Shown here piece after piece: positions 24,111-33,269 of a stretch of 64,000 nucleotides of DNA; the first letter of the stretch is position 1, and each line of letters starts with the position of its first letter. Source of the DNA: Gemmatimonas groenlandica (GTDB lineage Bacteria > Gemmatimonadota > Gemmatimonadetes > Gemmatimonadales > Gemmatimonadaceae); the NCBI RefSeq assembly GCF_013004105.1, contig NZ_CP053085.1:2170001-2234000 (forward strand), written 5' to 3'. The notes under the pieces are model-generated. The model saw nothing but the letters and a program-made list of their open reading frames with translations, ran no database searches and was not told the origin of the DNA. The translations under genes were made by a program, and so were the position numbers.

Positions 24111-25514
24111 ATGAGACCATTCACGTGTGCGATTTATTATGAGCTTGGTGATACCGCTTCGCCGCGACACCTTCACGCGCATCAGGCATTGTGCAATGCC
24201 GGCATCGACATGCTACCGCCGCGTGCCGATACGGCCTCCACGTCTGTCCGCCTGCTTGGCTTCGATGAAGTAAATGACGAAGTGCTCTCGCGCCTCTCGC
24301 GTCTTGCCGCACCGGGCACGTGGCGAGTACTCGCGATCGCCTTCGCGCCGTTTGCCCATCCTCGCACGGCGTGGCAGTTGCTGGAACATGGCGCCGCCGA
24401 TGTGGTGGTGTGGCGCAACGACAGCGACGGCGCGCGGGAGGTCGCGGCGCGTCTCGCCCGCTGGACCGACGTCGATGCCATCGTGACGTCGGACGTGGTG
24501 AAGCGCAATCTCGTGGGACGCAGCCCCGCATGGCTCCGCACCATCCGCGAAGTCGCCGAGATCGCGGCCTACACCGATGTGCCACTACTGCTCGGCGGAG
24601 AAACGGGCACGGGGAAGGAGCTCATCGCGCGCCTCGTACACACGCTCGACCGCCGCCCCACCAAGCGCGACCTGGTGCTGGTGGACTGCACGACGCTCAT
24701 GCCCGAGTTGTCGGGGAGCGAGCTGTTCGGCCACGAGCGCGGCGCCTTTACCGGTGCAGTCGCATCGCGCGACGGGGCGTGCGCGCTGGCCAACGGCGGC
24801 ACGCTCTTCCTCGATGAAATCGGCGAATTGCCGCTGGCTCTGCAGGCCGAACTGTTGCGCGTCGTGCAGGAAGGCACCTACAAGCGGGTCGGATCGAACA
24901 GCTGGCAGCAGGTGAAGTTCCGCCTTGTGTGCGCTACGCATCGCGACCTCACAGCCGAGGTGCAGCGCGGCACCTTCCGCCGTGACCTGTTCTATCGCAT
25001 CGCTGGCATCACCTGCACGCTTCCCACGCTCGCGGAACGCACGGACGACATCATCCCGCTGGCGGAGCACTTCATCCGGCAGGTGCGCCCCGACCTCGAC
25101 ACCGACCGCGTGGAGATGGACGATGCGGTGCGCGACTATCTGGTGGGCCGCGCATATCCCGGGAATGTGCGCGATCTGCGGCAGCTCGTGACCCGCATGA
25201 TCGCTCGCCACCCGGGGGCGGGCCATCTTTCCGTGGGTGACATTCCCATCGACGAGCGTCCGGTGGCGAGTGACACCGTGGGTGACTGGCGCGGCGATGC
25301 GTTCGCGCGTGGCATCCGGCTCGCGCTCGCCGCAGGCGCGAGTCTGCGCGAGATCAGCAGTGAGGCAAGTAGTATGGCGATTCGTATTGCCATGGACGAA
25401 TCGGCATCCCTTCGCAGTGCAGCGCGCCGACTCGGCGTCTCAGCGCGTGCGCTTCAGCTCCGGCGCGCGAGTGAGCAAACGAGTACTCCCCCGAGCATGC
25501 GTCCGCGCCGCTGA
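24111..25514 (+). CDS. Sigma-54-dependent transcriptional activator
   Basis: A 467-residue enhancer-binding protein. Residues 1-130 look like a degenerate receiver domain (RVLAIAFAPF, WQLLEHGAADVVVWRND) without a clear phosphoacceptor pocket. The AAA+ domain follows: Walker A GGETGTGKE, the sigma-54 contact loop GAFTGA, Walker B GGTLFLDEIGELP, and R-finger region FRRDLFYRI. The C terminus has a Fis-type helix-turn-helix (ASLRSAARRLGVSARALQLRR). The ATG at 24111 has GGAG eight bases upstream; ATG 24105 and a longer frame to 24003 are weaker. It converges on, and overlaps by 75 bases, the last gene of an operon whose first gene has a -24/-12 promoter, which makes it the likely activator of that operon. 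Confidence 0.93.
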   Translation: MRPFTCAIYYELGDTASPRHLHAHQALCNAGIDMLPPRADTASTSVRLLGFDEVNDEVLSRLSRLAAPGTWRVLAIAFAPFAHPRTAWQLLEHGAADVVVWRNDSDGAREVAARLARWTDVDAIVTSDVVKRNLVGRSPAWLRTIREVAEIAAYTDVPLLLGGETGTGKELIARLVHTLDRRPTKRDLVLVDCTTLMPELSGSELFGHERGAFTGAVASRDGACALANGGTLFLDEIGELPLALQAELLRVVQEGTYKRVGSNSWQQVKFRLVCATHRDLTAEVQRGTFRRDLFYRIAGITCTLPTLAERTDDIIPLAEHFIRQVRPDLDTDRVEMDDAVRDYLVGRAYPGNVRDLRQLVTRMIARHPGAGHLSVGDIPIDERPVASDTVGDWRGDAFARGIRLALAAGASLREISSEASSMAIRIAMDESASLRSAARRLGVSARALQLRRASEQTSTPPSMRPRR

Positions 25515-26294
25515 ATCGTGGCCGATCGCGATGGTCTGCCGTCGTGCGCGGAGCAGCCGCAGCAGGTTGCCCCCCAGTACCAGCTGCTTATCCTGCGGTG
25601 AAAGCGGCAGGGCGAGCACCTTGGCGAGTTCTACCGCCGGATGCAACCATGGCCCGTCGCTCCCGAAGAGCACCTTATGTGCTCCGGCTTCACGAACGGC
25701 CTGCAGCAAGAGGTCGAAGCGCCGCACCCCCGAGGTATCGGTGTAGACATTCGTGTGCCGCGACAGAAAGCCGAGAAAGGCGACCTGGGCGCGCCAGTCG
25801 TCGGCGAACGATCCGAGATGCGGAATGATGAAGTTCACCGTGGGATACTCGGTGGCGAACAGTTCGATCTGTGCCACCTCGCCAGTGACATCGTAGAGCA
25901 CCGGCAGGCGCAGTTCGCGCGCCACGTCGCACACTTCGCGCGTGATGGGCGCATCGTGCCGGTGCACCTTGATGCCGCGGAAGCGCTCGCGCTCCACGAA
26001 GTGCCGCACCATGGGCAACACGCGTCCGCGGTCACGCGCTGGATGCACAAACACGAAACCCGTGAGTCGATCGGGCGCCTGACGCACGAGGTCGGCCACC
26101 TGCGCATTCGCCGCGGCGTAATCGCTGTTGAAGGCGGCGAAGATGACGGTGTGCACGATACCACAGGCCTTGGCCCGCGCCTGGTGTTCCACGATCGGCG
26201 CCGTCGTATCCCACGGACCGGTGAGGCCGTCGCCGGTGCCGGCGTGACAGTGGCAGTCGATGATGGGCCCCGAAACCTCCGTGAGCGGGCGCAT
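25440..26294 (-). CDS. Amidohydrolase-2 family metal hydrolase
   Basis: A 284-residue cytoplasmic TIM-barrel hydrolase of the Amidohydro_2 group. The first metal motif is IIDCHCHAG (H-x-H), a mid-barrel histidine sits in NFIIPHLGSF, and the final aspartate in VLFGSDGPWLHP. Related enzymes are decarboxylases or lactone/amide hydrolases. I use the ATG at 26294, whose A overlaps the previous TGA (TGATG); two GTG codons just upstream (26297, 26300) are alternatives. It is the last of six tightly spaced genes. Its 3' end overlaps the convergent sigma-54 activator by 75 bases. The basic tail after the barrel (RTHARGSTRLLTRAPELKRTR) lies in that overlap and may be a late extension. Confidence 0.85.
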   Translation of the reverse strand: MRPLTEVSGPIIDCHCHAGTGDGLTGPWDTTAPIVEHQARAKACGIVHTVIFAAFNSDYAAANAQVADLVRQAPDRLTGFVFVHPARDRGRVLPMVRHFVERERFRGIKVHRHDAPITREVCDVARELRLPVLYDVTGEVAQIELFATEYPTVNFIIPHLGSFADDWRAQVAFLGFLSRHTNVYTDTSGVRRFDLLLQAVREAGAHKVLFGSDGPWLHPAVELAKVLALPLSPQDKQLVLGGNLLRLLRARRQTIAIGHDSAARTHARGSTRLLTRAPELKRTR

Positions 26295-27064
26295 CACCAC
26301 TCTCGAAAACTCTTTCCGACTACCCCTTGGCGCGTGCGCATGCCGCCGCGTGGCCCCACCTGCGTGAGTGTCGCGCCTTTCTTGCCGACCGTGAACGGTT
26401 TGATCGACGAACGATTGGTGAGCTTCACCGGACTGGTGGTGATGAGCGCCGCTTCCACATCACGTCGCACGGATGCGCTTCCGGCCGACCGTGTCTCCGT
26501 GCCGGTCTTGTTGATGGTACCCACGCGTACCTTGTACGGCGACGGATCGATCGCCAACTGCGTTAGTGTCTCGAGCCGCCCGAGCCACCGGCGTTGCACG
26601 TTCGACGACTGCCCCACGTAGAGTGGCCGTCCAGCGCGCAGCACCATGTACACGCCGGGAGTACTCGGCAGCTGGCTCGCGTTGGCAAGAGGGATGGGCT
26701 GGCTCCACGCCACCTGGGCGTGAAACGTGCGCTGCACCTCCTCGAGCATTTCGTACAGTTCGTCGGAGGTTCGCGCGACGATCTCGTCCTGCGGATGCTC
26801 CTCGGCACCGTCCGGCGTAGGCGGAGGCGCATCATCGTACGCACCGTCAGGCGCGTCACGGCGCGCGCTGTCACCGCCGCCGTACACACACGGACAGGCG
26901 TTGTCGCCCCAGATGATATTCTGCACGTAGGTGCGACGCCGACGCTTCGGGCGGGGGGGACGAACCGGGCGAAAGCGCCCGCGTCGCGCACGGCCGAATT
27001 CGTCTTCGTGCTGCGGCGCGAGGCCGGTCGCGGCCAAATGCTGCGGAGTGAGAATCGTCGTCAC
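26294..27064 (-). CDS. GIY-YIG nuclease-like protein
   Basis: A 256-residue protein. The first 100 residues are low-complexity and basic, then acidic (PRPKRRRR near 38-44). The C-terminal half holds a GIY-YIG-type domain: GVY at 137-139, YVG at 149-151, the following R158 in NVQRRW, and a downstream glutamate E204 in RDVEAALI, the four expected active-site positions. Domain length is close to the UvrC/endonuclease-type core. It starts with GTG at 27064, overlapping the previous stop by four bases (GTGA). A nuclease next to PLP and protease-like genes is unusual; the domain may act on DNA or serve another role. The activity is inferred from motifs only. Confidence 0.8.
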   Translation of the reverse strand: MTTILTPQHLAATGLAPQHEDEFGRARRGRFRPVRPPRPKRRRRTYVQNIIWGDNACPCVYGGGDSARRDAPDGAYDDAPPPTPDGAEEHPQDEIVARTSDELYEMLEEVQRTFHAQVAWSQPIPLANASQLPSTPGVYMVLRAGRPLYVGQSSNVQRRWLGRLETLTQLAIDPSPYKVRVGTINKTGTETRSAGSASVRRDVEAALITTSPVKLTNRSSIKPFTVGKKGATLTQVGPRGGMRTRQGVVGKSFREW

Positions 27065-28164
27065 AAGTGACTCCCAGCGGGCTTCATCCCGCGAGTGAAA
27101 AGACGGTGCGCCGTACCCACACGGCGCGCGGCACGCACCAGCGCCGCCGGGCGGTGCGAGGTGGAAATGAGAAACGTGAGCTGCACGCCGTCGCCGCAGC
27201 GCGAGCGCTGGCGCACCACATGGATGTCATGCGCCGCTAGATAGGCATGCACGTGCGACGCCTGTCCAGCATCCATCACCGGTGTGGACTGCACAGGAAA
27301 AAGCGTGGGGGTCTGCAGGGGCACGCCAGCGCTGCGCATGGCCGTGCGGAAGGTGGTGACGTTCGTCGCAAGACGCGCGCGCAGTTCGTCTCCCTGCGTG
27401 GTATTGACGGCCAGCGCCGCCTTGGCCGCCAGCACGCTCGCTATCGCTGGCGGACTGCAGTGCACACGCGTCTCGCTCTGCTGCCGGAACGCCTGAACCA
27501 CCTGGCGCTCGCCGCTCAGCGACGCCACCGGTACGCCGAACGCTTTCGCGAGTGACGTGATGAGTACCACCCCAGCCCTGGCGTCCAGCGAGCTCCGTTG
27601 CAGGATGCCCCCACCGCCTCGGCCATACGGCGCCGCCGCATCGGGTGTGTGCCCCAGCACACCCAGCGCCTGCGTATCGTCGATCACCAGCAGCGCACCG
27701 TACGACCGTGCGATCTGTTGGTAGGGGTCTAACGGCAGCACGCGCCCGCAACCCGTGCAGTACCCGTCGAGCACCACCACCGCCTGTTGCGCGCGTGGTC
27801 CGAGCTGCCGCAGCATGCGCGCGAGGGCGTCCGGCTCGAAGTGAGGCGCCGTGTGCACCGTGGCGCCTTTCGCTCGCGCATAGTCGGCCGCCCACTGGGC
27901 GATAGCGTATGCGCCGGCGTCGAGGATCAGTGCGCGACCATCGCCCGCCAAGCCGCCAAGCAGGTCCCACATGAGATGCAGCGTGGAGGGCGCCAGCACA
28001 CCGTCTGCACACCCCTGCAGCTGCGCGAGACTCGACGCGACCGTGCCGACGACGGGGGCCTCCGCCAGCGCGGCCGGCACCCCCGTCGTAAGACTCTCCC
28101 ATCCGGTCAGCAGCCCGGCCGGATGGCGAAAGCCGAGGTACAGTGCCGACGTGAGGTCGAGCAC
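27061..28164 (-). CDS. PLP-dependent AONS-like (alpha-oxoamine synthase/aminotransferase fold I) enzyme
   Basis: A 367-residue fold-type-I PLP enzyme, closest in shape to 8-amino-7-oxononanoate synthase and 2-amino-3-ketobutyrate ligase, which condense an amino acid with an acyl-CoA. The cofactor aspartate is in LLVIDDTQALGVLG (D162/D163) and the Schiff-base lysine is K207 in TSLAKAFG. The N terminus MLDLTSALYLGFRHP lacks the usual longer AONS leader, and no biotin genes are nearby, so a role in biotin synthesis is unlikely. It begins 12 bases after the 525-residue orphan and overlaps the GIY-YIG gene by four bases. Substrate unknown; a modifying role within this operon is an inference. Confidence 0.85.
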   Translation of the reverse strand: MLDLTSALYLGFRHPAGLLTGWESLTTGVPAALAEAPVVGTVASSLAQLQGCADGVLAPSTLHLMWDLLGGLAGDGRALILDAGAYAIAQWAADYARAKGATVHTAPHFEPDALARMLRQLGPRAQQAVVVLDGYCTGCGRVLPLDPYQQIARSYGALLVIDDTQALGVLGHTPDAAAPYGRGGGGILQRSSLDARAGVVLITSLAKAFGVPVASLSGERQVVQAFRQQSETRVHCSPPAIASVLAAKAALAVNTTQGDELRARLATNVTTFRTAMRSAGVPLQTPTLFPVQSTPVMDAGQASHVHAYLAAHDIHVVRQRSRCGDGVQLTFLISTSHRPAALVRAARRVGTAHRLFTRGMKPAGSHL

Positions 28165-28176
28165 GACGCACTCCTT

Positions 28177-29754
28177 TCACGTTCGCTCCCGCCGCCCACG
28201 CAGCCGCACCGTCGTCATGGCGCTCGTCGCCGCGGACAACGCACCAACGGTCTCACCATTACCGCCCATGCCGTTGCCCATGCTGTAGCGGCGCTGCTCA
28301 GCCAACCGGCGCTGCAGCAGTTCGCTCGGCATGGTGGCGTCGGCATAGTCGAGCCCTGCGAGATCGACTCCCGTAACCACCCGGTACGCATGCAGGTAGC
28401 TCTGCACCTCCGGCCGCCAGAAGCGCGCCCACGTGCGCGCCACCTGTTGGTTGTTGGTGTTCATCCAGGCGTAGTAACGGATGGACAGCAGCAGCCGTTC
28501 ACCGTACGTGCCGAGATCGCGGAAGTGCAACACGCTGGTGTCGCTCCACCCCTGCACGCGCTTCATCGCGTCCACGCCGCCCATCCAGGGTTCGGGATAC
28601 GGCATCATCCAACGCCCACGCAGGAAGTCGCGCATCTCCGGCCGCGCCAGCAGCCACTGTTCCATCAGCATCTCGGCACGCGCCGTCCACGGCAGATCCC
28701 GGAACTGATTGTGTGCGCCCTCGGCGAGCACGAGATGTACTTCCTTGAGCGCCTGCAGAATGGGGAACGCATCGGCCGTCACCGTGGCATCGTCATCCTG
28801 CAGGTAGAACTGCGCACAGCGACGCAACAGCTCATGGAACGCTTCGATGAAGCGACTGCGCGAGTCGGCCGGCGAGAGCCCTTCGGTGGCCTTGCCCACC
28901 AGCGACAGCCCGTAGTGATGCTGGTACTCGTACGCCCGGCGCCGTACCGACAAACGCTGCTGCTCATCATTCACGTAGCCCCACAGCAACGTGCTGAGCG
29001 GACGCAATGGGGCGAGCTCCAGCTCCGCCAGCGGATCGTTCGCGCCACCAGGGCGCCGCACGTTCTGGAAGCGACGCGCGATGGCGTTGAGCGTCTGCGA
29101 AAGCATCCCCTCTTCGTGCCAGTACGACCAGATCAGTTCGAGGAGACACGGCAGCGATGCGTCCGTCGCGGCGATGAACTGGCAAGGACCGCCACCTTGT
29201 GCGCTCGAGCTGGCGCCCAGATGCGGCAGAATGGCGTCGAGATAACTGGTGTGATGGCTACTCAGATACCGCTGCAGCGAATTGAGACCGAGATCATCGG
29301 CGCCGATACCGTATCCACGCGCTTCGGCCTCCTCTGTCGCGCCTTCGGTGAGCCCGACGCCGGACTCCTTCAGACCGCCGAGCCACTTGTTGCGCTCGAG
29401 CATCGTCGCGAGCGCCCCGTTCGACATATCCTGGCCGTCCCACGTACCCACGTTGGTGAGCAGGAACGCTTCGGTCGCGGTTTTGAGCAGCTCGTACGGA
29501 TCGAGACCGCTCTGCACCTGAATGCCGGTGATTCTCGCCGACTCGTCGTCTGCGTTGCACAGCACGCGATTGATGAACCGGTTGTAGCTGTCAAACGAGA
29601 GCGTCTCCGACTGGGTCAGTGTATGCACCCACAGCACCGCGGCATCGACATCCTCGAGTTCCGTTCGCGCGAGGCGCACGGTATACAGCGGTTGAATGCC
29701 GTTGCCGGCAGGCGCCTTCTTTGCATCGGCTAGCCCTTTCTTGGGATCGGTCAT
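28177..29754 (-). CDS. Large protein of unknown function in sigma-54 operon
   Basis: A 525-residue, probably cytoplasmic protein, mostly helical and without signal peptide or membrane segment. I use the ATG at 29754, which overlaps the TGA of the metalloprotease-like gene by four bases (ATGA); the longer frame to 29868 lies inside that gene. Notable conserved-looking stretches are LIWSYWHEEGMLSQTLNAIARRFQN, rich in aromatic residues, FRDLPWTARAEMLMEQWLLARPEM, and a C-terminal Gly/Met/Asn segment (SMGNGMGGNG). I do not recognise a domain. Position in the middle of the operon suggests it is a core component. Confidence 0.8.
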   Translation of the reverse strand: MTDPKKGLADAKKAPAGNGIQPLYTVRLARTELEDVDAAVLWVHTLTQSETLSFDSYNRFINRVLCNADDESARITGIQVQSGLDPYELLKTATEAFLLTNVGTWDGQDMSNGALATMLERNKWLGGLKESGVGLTEGATEEAEARGYGIGADDLGLNSLQRYLSSHHTSYLDAILPHLGASSSAQGGGPCQFIAATDASLPCLLELIWSYWHEEGMLSQTLNAIARRFQNVRRPGGANDPLAELELAPLRPLSTLLWGYVNDEQQRLSVRRRAYEYQHHYGLSLVGKATEGLSPADSRSRFIEAFHELLRRCAQFYLQDDDATVTADAFPILQALKEVHLVLAEGAHNQFRDLPWTARAEMLMEQWLLARPEMRDFLRGRWMMPYPEPWMGGVDAMKRVQGWSDTSVLHFRDLGTYGERLLLSIRYYAWMNTNNQQVARTWARFWRPEVQSYLHAYRVVTGVDLAGLDYADATMPSELLQRRLAEQRRYSMGNGMGGNGETVGALSAATSAMTTVRLRGRRERT

Positions 29755-31100
29755 GCTGTCAGCCTCCTTCGTATGGTTGAAGTGCGATCTGCCGTCTTGG
29801 GCTGCAGCCGGTTCGGCATGCGCGCGGAGCAGATGTCGGTCATGTCGATGGCCCCGCGCAGTGCCCAATTGGTGAGCAAATGCGCGACGACGCGGCTTTC
29901 CACTTCGGGCGTGATCGCGCCATCTGCGCGCGCCTGGCCCAGCGCCGCGAACACCAGCGACGGCGTGGTCTTCCGCATCTCGAGTGGTGCGGACCCGAAT
30001 CGCTGATAGAGCTTTTCGAGTTGCGCCGGTGCGCGGTCTGGTGTGGCCAACGCCGCGCCAATGCTGCGCCCACCCAACGACGGTGGACGATGCTCGACGA
30101 ACGCCTTGGCAGCGTCGGGCAGTGTGCGCACCAGCGTCTGGAGCAGCGCGGCGTACTCGTCCGGGTGATCAGCGGGCGGATAGAGCGCGCGCCACGTATC
30201 GGCAATCGCGCTCCACTGTGGGTGCGGATACAGCTGCGCCCCCATCGCGGCTGAGAGCAGCACGCGTATCCACGGAATGGGGTGTGGCTCGTCGATTTCC
30301 TTGCGAAACACGAACGGCCGCGGAAGCGATACCACGCCCATCAGCCCCAGCGGTGCGGCAATGCCCACTCGCGCCACACTCCACAGATCCGCCACGATTT
30401 CCGAGCACCAGCGATCCCACGCCTGCCACGCCACTGCGTCGGGGCCCGCGTTCACCGCGCGCGCCTGCAGTGCGGGGCGTAACGATTCCACCAATTCAAG
30501 CAGCGCGGCGCCCTGATGCCCGACTTCGTGTACCAACGAACTCGCGATACCGGCACCCACCATGCGCTCGCGAGGCACCTTGATGATGGCCACGGGATTT
30601 TCCCCGCCACCCGGCAATCGCGTACGCGCCCGGCGAATCGCGGCGCCCTGCCCTCGCTGCAGGTAGCACACCACGGGTGGTGCTTCGTACGGCATACCGG
30701 GCACCTGCAACGCGTCCTTGGCGAACACGTCGAGCCCGCCGAGAAAGACACCCGTTTCGTGCTCCGATCGCTGCGTGACCACTTCGGAGAAGAGATCGAA
30801 CTGCGTGAGCACGGCGTTGAATCGCAAGCGCAGAAACACGAACCGCTGCTGCGCCTGTGCCGGTGTTGCGGCGCGTCCCTCGGCGCCGAGCAGCCACGCG
30901 AGGAACTCGCTCACCTTGCGGCGCACTTCGTGTCGGCCCGCCGACATGTGTCGCTCGATCGCCGCCTGCGCTTCCACGGAGAACGACGCCGCGACCACCA
31001 TGGTCTCGGTGAGCGCGAACGGCCGCACGCGATGCGCGCGTGTGAGCAACGCGCGCGCTTCGAGCTCGATCAGCTGCTTGGGCGCGAGAAACGCCGACAC
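29751..31100 (-). CDS. HEVGH-motif metalloprotease-like protein
   Basis: A 449-residue protein with a zincin signature: HEVGH at residues 191-195 (context ASSLVHEVGHQGAALLEL) and, 39 residues later, E234 in WCSEIVADLW, an ExxxD arrangement that can supply the third zinc ligand as in gluzincins. No signal peptide was seen, so it would act in the cytoplasm unless exported by another route. The C-terminal third is helical (YPPADHPDEYAALLQTLVRTLP). It starts four bases after the stop of the glycine-zipper protein gene, so it may process or handle that protein. The peptidase family is not recognised, and the activity is inferred from the motif. Confidence 0.8.
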   Translation of the reverse strand: MSAFLAPKQLIELEARALLTRAHRVRPFALTETMVVAASFSVEAQAAIERHMSAGRHEVRRKVSEFLAWLLGAEGRAATPAQAQQRFVFLRLRFNAVLTQFDLFSEVVTQRSEHETGVFLGGLDVFAKDALQVPGMPYEAPPVVCYLQRGQGAAIRRARTRLPGGGENPVAIIKVPRERMVGAGIASSLVHEVGHQGAALLELVESLRPALQARAVNAGPDAVAWQAWDRWCSEIVADLWSVARVGIAAPLGLMGVVSLPRPFVFRKEIDEPHPIPWIRVLLSAAMGAQLYPHPQWSAIADTWRALYPPADHPDEYAALLQTLVRTLPDAAKAFVEHRPPSLGGRSIGAALATPDRAPAQLEKLYQRFGSAPLEMRKTTPSLVFAALGQARADGAITPEVESRVVAHLLTNWALRGAIDMTDICSARMPNRLQPKTADRTSTIRRRLTA

Positions 31101-31104
31101 GGGA

Positions 31105-31866
31105 TCAAATACCCGTCAGGATGATGCGGCGCCCACGACGGTACCACGTGCCGCGTTGCGGGCGGGCACCGTGGCCGACGGACGCACCATTCCCCGCGGT
31201 GCCGATCACCGACGGCGCACGCCCGCTCATCTGCGCGGCAAGTCCCGGAGCGTGCATGCGGGCCGCTTGCGAGAGTGCCGCCTGCACCGCACGCTGTGGC
31301 GACGCGTTCTGCGGCGCGGCAACGGCACCCTGCGTGGCCGCACCGGCGAGACGCACGTAACGACGCGCGACTTCGAACTCCTGATCTTCGTGGCTCAGCC
31401 CTTCGAGCTCGAGCCCGAACGCGCTGCCCGCCGCCGACGCGAGCTTGCCACCGATCACACCACCAATGCCCGGCACGATGAGATTCCCGAGGGCCGCACC
31501 CGCCATCGGCAGCGCGGTCTTGGCGACTTTCTTGAGTGCACTGCCCAGGGCTTGTCCGATCGGGCCGCGCACGACCTTGCCAAGTGAGCGCCCGGCGCTC
31601 TTGATCAACTTGCCGAGGAACTGATTCAGCTCGGCTTCGTTGGTGATCTCCAGTAGTTCGGCCGCGAGTTCGGCCTCCATCTCTTCGGAGAAGACACTTT
31701 CGTACTCACCCTCACCTTCGAACTCGAAGCTCTCCATTTCCTGCGCGCCGTACTCGCCGAACGTTTCGCCGCTGTACTCGTTGGAGTATTCGGTTTCGTA
31801 GCCCGTGCTTTCAAGCGCGTCGATGCCACGCGCGATCTGCTGCTGCATGCGATCCATGTCGTGCAT
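31105..31866 (-). CDS. Acidic/aromatic and glycine-zipper protein, first gene of sigma-54 operon
   Basis: A 253-residue protein with a striking layout. Residues 21-72 are very rich in Glu with Tyr/Phe (YETEYSNEYSGETFGEYG, FEFEGEGEYE). Residues 83-152 form an alternating small/hydrophobic, Gly-rich stretch (FLGKLIKSAGRSLGKVV, LGSALKKVAKTALPMAGAAL, GIGGVIGGKLASAAGSAFG) like a glycine zipper or membrane-inserting helix pair. Then come GLELEGLSHEDQEFEVARRYVRLAG and a basic C-terminal end (WYRRGRRIIL). No signal peptide. The start ATG 31866 is preceded by AGGGGG at 31872-31877. An excreted or membrane-active effector, or a scaffold, would fit. I recall similar E/Y-rich zipper proteins in other phyla but no assigned function. 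Confidence 0.83.
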   Translation of the reverse strand: MHDMDRMQQQIARGIDALESTGYETEYSNEYSGETFGEYGAQEMESFEFEGEGEYESVFSEEMEAELAAELLEITNEAELNQFLGKLIKSAGRSLGKVVRGPIGQALGSALKKVAKTALPMAGAALGNLIVPGIGGVIGGKLASAAGSAFGLELEGLSHEDQEFEVARRYVRLAGAATQGAVAAPQNASPQRAVQAALSQAARMHAPGLAAQMSGRAPSVIGTAGNGASVGHGARPQRGTWYRRGRRIILTGI

Positions 31867-31938: not shown

Positions 31939-31980
31939 AAGGCTAAGTCATTTCATGGCAACGCATTCAGGTTTTGCGGG

Positions 31981-32039
31981 GCGAAGCGGGCTTCGCGGGC
32001 GACGCGAGCTTCGCGGGGGGAGTGCGAAGGAGATTTCGC
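31981..32039. promoter_or_regulatory. Three tandem dyads GCGAA-N6-TTCGC (candidate activator-binding sites)
   Basis: Copies lie at 31981-31996 (GCGAA-N6-TTCGC), 31999-32014 (GCGAC-N6-TTCGC, one mismatch) and 32024-32039 (GCGAA-N6-TTCGC). Their centres are 18 and 25 bases apart and fall about 76, 94 and 119 bases upstream of the predicted sigma-54 start site, the usual distance for enhancer-binding proteins. They could instead be a GC-rich hairpin repeat or contribute to ending the convergent-side transcript of the oxidoreductase gene. Confidence 0.65.
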
Positions 32040-32099: not shown

Positions 32100-33269
32100 T
32101 CAGGACAGTGACGGTGCGGTCACTGTTGGTAAGTCCGGCGACCAATGCTCGCCGAGCAGCAAGCGCACGCCGGCCGGCTCCCCATCCAGCGCCGCGGACA
32201 CGACGGCACGCGCCGCCAGCGCGCCGATCACGTTTCCCGTGCCTGAGTAGCCACCGAGCGCCCACACGTTGCCGCGCACTTGCTCGATGACCGGCAACCC
32301 GCTCTCCGTGTAGCCCGCACACGCCGCCCAGCGGTGCGTGATCGGCGCCGTCACGCCGAGGTGCGTGCGCACGAACGATTCCAGTAGGTGTTGCACTGGA
32401 GCCGTCGGCCGCGCGTCCAAGCTCCACTCACTGGGTCCGCCTTGGTCGCGAAACCCGCCGATCGTGAGCGAGCCGTCGGGCAACTGTTGCCAGTACTCGT
32501 AGCCCTCGCGGTAATACATCGGGCACGGTACCGTGATCTCGGTGGTGGGTGCGGTGGCCAGCATTTGCAGTCGCGCCGTCCGTACGCGACCCGTGAGTTC
32601 GGGCAGCAGCACTTCGAGCCGGCCATCAATTGCCACGATCACCCGCCGGCAATGCACGGTCCCCTCGGCGGTGTCCACGCGCGTACCCTGCACCGCGGTT
32701 ACGGGCGATCGCGAGAACAGCTGCGCACCCGCCTGCGCCGCAGTGCGCGCCAGGATGCGACAGCGCGCCAGCGGATTGAACGACGCATCGGAAGGGAACG
32801 TGAGTCCCACGCCATCGGCCGCCTCGTACCATTCGCACGCCAAGCCATCGGCCAGCATCGCGTCCATCTGCGCCCGACAGTCTTCGATCTCCCAGGCATC
32901 GGCGGCGATGCGGCGCGAGCCCACGAACCGCACCGTCTCCGGCGCGGCCTCGGCAAGGCGCTGCATCTCCACGAGAGTGGCCTGATAAATCGCGAACGCC
33001 CGATCGCGACCGTGCTTGCGCACCGCGTCGTGATAGAAGTCGTACGCGCCGGCCAACAGGAAGCCGCCGTTTCGTCCGGCCGCACCGGCCGCCACGTCGC
33101 TCGCGTCGAGTCCGACCACCGCCTCACCGCGCGCGAGCAGTTCGTCGATCACGGTGAGACCGGAACCGCCCAGTCCGATTACGCAGGTGCCCGTCGTGAT
33201 CGCGCCCTGCAACGACGGGAATGCTGTCCACGTGCCGTCATCCCAGACGGGCTGGTTATCGGTTGTCAT
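32100..33269 (-). CDS. FAD-dependent oxidoreductase (DAO/PuuB-like)
   Basis: A 389-residue flavin amine or amino-acid oxidase/dehydrogenase of the DAO family. The FAD-binding Rossmann motif is VIGLGGSGL followed by the ribose-binding acid in VVGLDASDVAAGAAGRNGGFLLAG, the pattern seen in gamma-glutamylputrescine oxidase-like enzymes. The C terminus has the expected RWAACAGYTESGLPVIEQV and ALGGYSGTGNVIGALAAR motifs. Probably cytoplasmic. I use the ATG at 33269; an ATG at 33281 is possible. The start overlaps the S41 peptidase stop by 14 bases, so both belong to one transcript. Natural substrate unknown: a secondary amine or modified amino acid is likely. Confidence 0.9.
   Translation of the reverse strand: MTTDNQPVWDDGTWTAFPSLQGAITTGTCVIGLGGSGLTVIDELLARGEAVVGLDASDVAAGAAGRNGGFLLAGAYDFYHDAVRKHGRDRAFAIYQATLVEMQRLAEAAPETVRFVGSRRIAADAWEIEDCRAQMDAMLADGLACEWYEAADGVGLTFPSDASFNPLARCRILARTAAQAGAQLFSRSPVTAVQGTRVDTAEGTVHCRRVIVAIDGRLEVLLPELTGRVRTARLQMLATAPTTEITVPCPMYYREGYEYWQQLPDGSLTIGGFRDQGGPSEWSLDARPTAPVQHLLESFVRTHLGVTAPITHRWAACAGYTESGLPVIEQVRGNVWALGGYSGTGNVIGALAARAVVSAALDGEPAGVRLLLGEHWSPDLPTVTAPSLS

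Follow-up and report, generated by a model that had tools for sequence, protein, structure and literature searches.

The locus and its genes

We analysed a 64 kb stretch of Gemmatimonas groenlandica DNA (the window), in which an operon on the minus strand runs from 31866 to 25440 in the order H-M-B-A-(variable)-amidohydrolase, its end adjoining the convergent gene of a sigma-54 activator (24111-25514, plus strand). The first gene of the operon, H (31105-31866), encodes a protein with an acidic N-terminus and a glycine/alanine-rich core, whose homologs share 49-58% identity. It is followed by M (29751-31100), a metallopeptidase-like protein with an invariant H191-E192-x-x-H195 motif and E234/D238, and by B (28177-29868), a conserved protein of the cluster whose gene overlaps M and whose start codon is uncertain. 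The product of A (27061-28164) is a PLP-dependent enzyme of the BioF/alpha-oxoamine synthase type (Aminotran_1_2, E = 1.1e-16; bioF model, 1.4e-20, below the cut-off). The variable slot holds, in the window, a GIY-YIG-like protein (26294-27064) with weak matches to excinuclease-type models and with homologs in the loci L018 and L023. The last conserved gene of the operon (25440-26300) encodes an amidohydrolase (Amidohydro_2, E = 1.2e-18) that shows 61-71% identity in the relatives. All of these genes lie on the minus strand.

H, M and B matched no Pfam family. For M, there was no sequence match in the PDB, and a Foldseek search with its helical model returned no PDB fold match; M, which is strongly conserved, is a candidate for a new metallopeptidase family. 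Apart from the shared AAA+ domain and a tape-measure-like match of H, itself weak (E = 4e-4), nothing was assigned to defence or phage functions by PADLOC and PHROGs.

The protein encoded by 24111-25514 presents a degenerate receiver, an AAA+ domain (PF00158, Sigma54_activat, E = 1.7e-56) in which the GAFTGA loop is found in the alignment, and a C-terminal Fis-type helix-turn-helix. Its AlphaFold model (pLDDT 90) exhibits a receiver-like fold at the N-terminus and, at the C-terminus, a helix-turn-helix made of helices 434-441 and 445-457. The Foldseek matches were NtrX, NtrC1, FleQ and VpsR. The phosphoacceptor column of the receiver (column 52) is an Asp in only 13 of 41 sequences, and neither the acidic pair nor the beta-5 Lys is conserved, so that the protein does not belong with the phosphorylated response regulators (NtrC proper). 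Its N-terminus is probably a pseudo-receiver and, since the phosphoacceptor Asp is not conserved, its control is probably not exerted by ordinary phosphorylation.

In having a receiver-like N-terminus devoid of the phosphorylation residues, an AAA+ core and a Fis-type helix-turn-helix, the activator resembles FleQ and VpsR, from which it differs by its single target operon per genome and by its recognition helix. Among the NCBIfam and PADLOC models, the best were those of RtcR, the CARF-AAA-HTH activator of RNA repair, which match the AAA+ domain and the helix-turn-helix. The N-terminus of the activator is, however, left unmatched by the CARF part of these models (the matches begin at residues 126-134), the NCBIfam score reaches 283.5 of a cut-off of 650, and neither rtcA nor rtcB was found in the cluster; the protein is not identified as RtcR.

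Promoter and dyads upstream of the operon

The operon is headed by a sigma-54 promoter, TGGCAC-CACTC-GTGC (31938-31924, minus strand), with a start predicted at about 31912. It conforms to the -24/-12 type, which has GG and GC elements ten bases apart in a TGGCAY-N5-TTGCW context. The genome encodes one rpoN gene (Sigma54_DBD, E = 7.5e-63).

A scan of the window for GCGAA-N6-TTCGC retrieved two perfect copies and no others, GCGAAGCGGGCTTCGC at 31981-31996 and GCGAAGGAGATTTCGC at 32024-32039. The copy lying between them, GCGACGCGAGCTTCGC (31999-32014; GCGAAGCTCGCGTCGC on the minus strand), carries one mismatch. Taking 31924 as the -12 C, the centres of the three copies fall at -76.5, -94.5 and -119.5 relative to the predicted start. 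The preliminary description had reported two perfect dyads and one with a single mismatch, at 31981, 31999 and 32024, with centres some 76 to 119 bases ahead of the start, and both the scan and the recalculated distances agree with it. Its view of the three copies as enhancer sites is supported by the comparison of homologous loci (see below) as far as the enhancer itself is concerned; the number of sites has to be revised, as the conserved sites are two, about 42 bp apart, and the mismatched middle copy is without counterpart in nearly all relatives. Likewise, GCGAA-N6-TTCGC describes the copies of the window, while the core that is conserved across loci is CGAA-N6-TTCG. Copies with up to two mismatches are uninformative, because their number in the window (87) barely exceeds that expected by chance (shuffle mean of 68).

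The canonical enhancer is, as predicted from sequence, the outer pair, i.e. the proximal dyad at 31981-31996 (centre -76.5) and the distal dyad at 32024-32039 (centre -119.5), 43 bp apart and both perfect. The middle copy fails the CGAA-N6-TTCG core: read on the minus strand, the sequence here is GCGAAGCTCGCGTCGCCC GCGAAGCCCGCTTCGCCC, and one arm of the middle copy is without TTCG. It probably arose from the proximal dyad by a local tandem duplication of 18 bp and then decayed, and it probably stands outside the conserved enhancer, with some residual binding being possible there. A third core site was found in one other locus of the 76 compared (L020), at a different position.

Between the proximal dyad and the promoter, an IHF-consensus-like remnant, ATGAAATGACTTA (31944-31956, minus strand), is degenerate, with three mismatches. 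A perfect IHF-consensus-like element, WATCAANNNNTTR, is present beside the promoter in six of seven relatives from the same phylum (L017-L022, at about -42 to -30), and in several Nitrosomonas-type loci an element one mismatch from perfect is found at about -72. In L017-L022 and in the Nitrosomonas loci, the element sits between enhancer and promoter. We treat it as a lead, because it is degenerate in the window, and do not claim a general requirement for IHF, since outside the Gemmatimonadota and Nitrosomonas groups the consensus is not strong.

Conservation of the dyad pair across phyla

A search with the M alignment yielded 80 loci from about a dozen phyla, an earlier search with the H protein alone having returned no loci. 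According to the record titles, these loci come from Chloroflexi, Verrucomicrobia, Planctomycetes, Acidobacteria, Nitrospira, Methylomirabilis, Rokubacteria, Calditrichia, Geobacter and other Deltaproteobacteria, Corallococcus and many Pseudomonadota. Promoters were picked by a -24/-12 score of our own and by their position before H, prior to any inspection of the dyads. The promoter GG and TG are fixed in all 76 regions obtained in this way, and TGGCAY-N5-TTGC is found in most of the distant loci.

CGAA-N6-TTCG was present in 76/76 promoter regions, in 148 copies and exactly twice in 70 of them. These counts are not independent, since the loci share ancestry and transfer has probably moved some of them. 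Among 256 arms combined with 13 spacers, this pattern ranked first; the runner-up (38/76) is this dyad displaced by a single base, and CGAA with other spacers occurs in at most 5 regions. Random 200-bp windows taken from the same loci contained CGAA-N6-TTCG in 41 of 1520 cases. The dyads are 41-43 bp apart nearly everywhere, which corresponds to four helical turns, and 31-32 bp apart, or three turns, in three loci (L081, L082 and L104). A clear second site is missing in L033, L050 and L065. Five further loci, in which no promoter was scored, also contain the pair, two of them (L086 and L101) showing no clear promoter.

When the regions were aligned on the proximal dyad, the columns outside the dyads held a mean of 0.12 bits. 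The arms of the distal dyad reached 1.0 to 1.6 bits, although they had not been used for the alignment and despite one-base shifts in the spacing. The proximal site tends to be placed at -64.5, -76 (the class of the window) or -87.5 relative to the predicted start; Nitrosomonas and similar loci have it farther out, at about -142 to -147. A helical periodicity of these distances is suggestive only.

Plasmid loci, found later by a separate route, show the full arrangement in Ensifer (TGGCACGGAGCTTGC, 43 bp) and Rhizobium (TGGCACGGAGATTGC, 41 bp). The Paraburkholderia plasmid locus contains one perfect dyad, a degenerate one seen by eye about three turns upstream, and the promoter-like sequence TGGTATGACTCGTGC. 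In a Chloracidobacterium locus (L030:7992-9270), two full enhancer pairs are observed, and each of them is followed by a separate sigma-54 promoter and a separate H gene.

Occurrence of the pair in genomes

The G. groenlandica genome (5.18 Mb) contains 21 perfect GCGAA-N6-TTCGC copies, compared to 7 for the backward control, and pairs within 60 bp are expected by calculation about 0.005 times per genome. There is a single CGAA-N6-TTCG pair with a spacer of 22-32 in the genome, against none for the control pattern.

Searching 395 genomes of the phylum for H gave hits in 9, one of which (G158) is a weak match without the operon. The operon was sought in 29 congeners and was absent from all of them, so that close congeners cannot serve as controls. 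This patchy occurrence suggests horizontal transfer or repeated loss. In a first check of the phylum relatives, the same cluster (M, B, A, amidohydrolase and activator) was found; all seven relatives have an equivalent -24/-12 promoter, located 60 to 80 bases upstream of H, with dyads centred near -106 and -64.5. The pair is present in 17 of the 395 genomes, i.e. in all 8 operon carriers and in 9 others. Outside this phylum search, it is present in 25/25 other carriers, and exactly once in 23 of them.

The preliminary description had called for a search for the dyad upstream of homologous operons and for further copies in the genome, and had held that a similar density in unrelated regions would speak against the enhancer reading. 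The dyad is found in all the homologous promoter regions and in the later plasmid loci, it does not reach a similar density in the random windows, and the genome contains no second pair.

A probable two-site enhancer for a dedicated activator

Taken together, the outer dyads very probably constitute a two-site upstream activating sequence, through which a dedicated sigma-54 activator (24111-25514) would drive the operon. As in upstream activating sequences, the dyads are placed upstream of the promoter, their spacing is phased and they are conserved in homologous operons.

The genome encodes 14 to 15 sigma-54 activators, and for this reason the assignment of the dyads to the one of 24111-25514, which the preliminary description had already named, rests on linkage and on the recognition helix. 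An ortholog of the activator is linked to the operon, and convergent with it, in 52 of the 56 long loci, i.e. those with enough sequence. In the recognition helix of the family, R446 and Q449 do not vary at all, and T444, D445 and R451 hardly do. The activator of the window departs from the family by S444 and A445, and its dyads keep the core. With the helix-turn-helix profile of the family, it scores 60 bits, compared to at most 20 for 13 other activators of the same genome. The activator is presumed to bind the dyads.

Another activator, or a repressor, might bind the dyads in place of the linked protein, a reading that draws on the number of sigma-54 activators in the genome. We regard it as unlikely: the linked activator accompanies the operon in these 52/56 loci across phyla, its recognition helix is nearly invariant, as is the half-site, with no other activator of the genome resembling it there, and the single pair per genome is in keeping with a dedicated regulator. 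The dyads could also act as RNA hairpins, either as terminators of the upstream oxidoreductase gene or as a processing element. The oxidoreductase gene stops at 32100 on the same strand, and the copies could fold into short GC-rich hairpins; their inner columns are slightly enriched in complementary bases. Conservation is nevertheless confined to the four-base arms, with weak pairing inside the dyads, and tracks the distance to the promoter and between the sites, whatever the upstream gene; in several relatives, another inverted repeat, longer and distinct from the dyads, lies upstream of them. As, in addition, no terminator with a T run was found, the hairpin reading was set aside as very improbable. 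Finally, the dyads might be repeats that arose by chance in GC-rich DNA, or members of a mobile family. Single dyads do arise by chance, as seen from the five CGAA-N6-TTCG dyads of the window and from the excess of perfect copies over the control in the genome. This reading can practically be dismissed, as the genome contains the pair only once, the pair goes with one operon across phyla, and the DNA between and around the sites is not conserved.

From the sites, spacing, promoter, linkage and conservation, all read from the sequence, we infer binding, oligomerisation, looping, activation and a signal for the dedicated activator as follows. A dimer of the 24111-25514 protein would occupy each CGAA-N6-TTCG site by means of its Fis-type helix-turn-helix. 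The sites being about four turns apart and on one face of the DNA, the bound dimers could nucleate an AAA+ hexamer, which would reach the sigma-54 polymerase at 31938-31924 by DNA looping. ATP-driven opening of the promoter would then lead to transcription of the H-M-B-A-(variable)-amidohydrolase operon. The two-site layout fits the mechanism of reviewed activators, which bind upstream, oligomerise and loop to the promoter, often with the help of IHF (PMC7057263).

The arrangement resembles the upstream activating sequences of the NtrC family (glnA, nifH and norV type), in which tandem dyads lie about 60 to 190 bp upstream of the -24/-12 promoter and whole turns apart, with one dimer expected per dyad. 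It differs from them by its CGAA-N6-TTCG core and its fixed spacing of 42 bp, which are not known to match any other site. The system is of a known kind, a sigma-54 enhancer with its dedicated activator, attached to an operon for which, as for the dyad, no description was found; the literature search on the cluster and the dyad covered subscription journals thinly. The paired CGAA-N6-TTCG sites, 42 bp apart, together with the -24/-12 promoter, provide a DNA address by which the operon and its activator can be found in about a dozen phyla, and which makes the binding specificity and the inducing signal testable in cultured carriers, e.g. Janthinobacterium and Nitrosomonas. The system also illustrates with unusual clarity how an enhancer can be kept at a fixed helical phase while the flanking DNA has completely diverged.

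Possible role of the operon

Across loci, the slot between A and the amidohydrolase gene contains Amidase_2, M23, M74, glucosaminidase/DUF2272, OmpA and trypsin-like proteins, with weak HNH and M35 matches. These contents, variable and peptidoglycan-acting, suggest, as a hypothesis only, an envelope-directed or effector-like system. It is conceivable, and we put it forward tentatively, that the operon represents an undescribed system subject to wide exchange. Its H-domain proteins, either on their own or joined to cargo, would handle a variable set of enzymes together with the metallopeptidase-like protein M and with B and A; these enzymes would comprise peptidoglycan-acting ones (amidase, M23, M74 and glucosaminidase) and nuclease- and protease-like ones. 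Such a system would resemble a polymorphic effector or envelope-remodelling system placed under a single-target sigma-54 switch. The cargo of the slot often carries the peptidoglycan-binding domain PG_binding_1 and is sometimes fused to an H-like domain. Examples of cargo genes are located at L041:14630-17011, L079:10139-12946, L067:15152-16795 and L086:14140-15753, among others.
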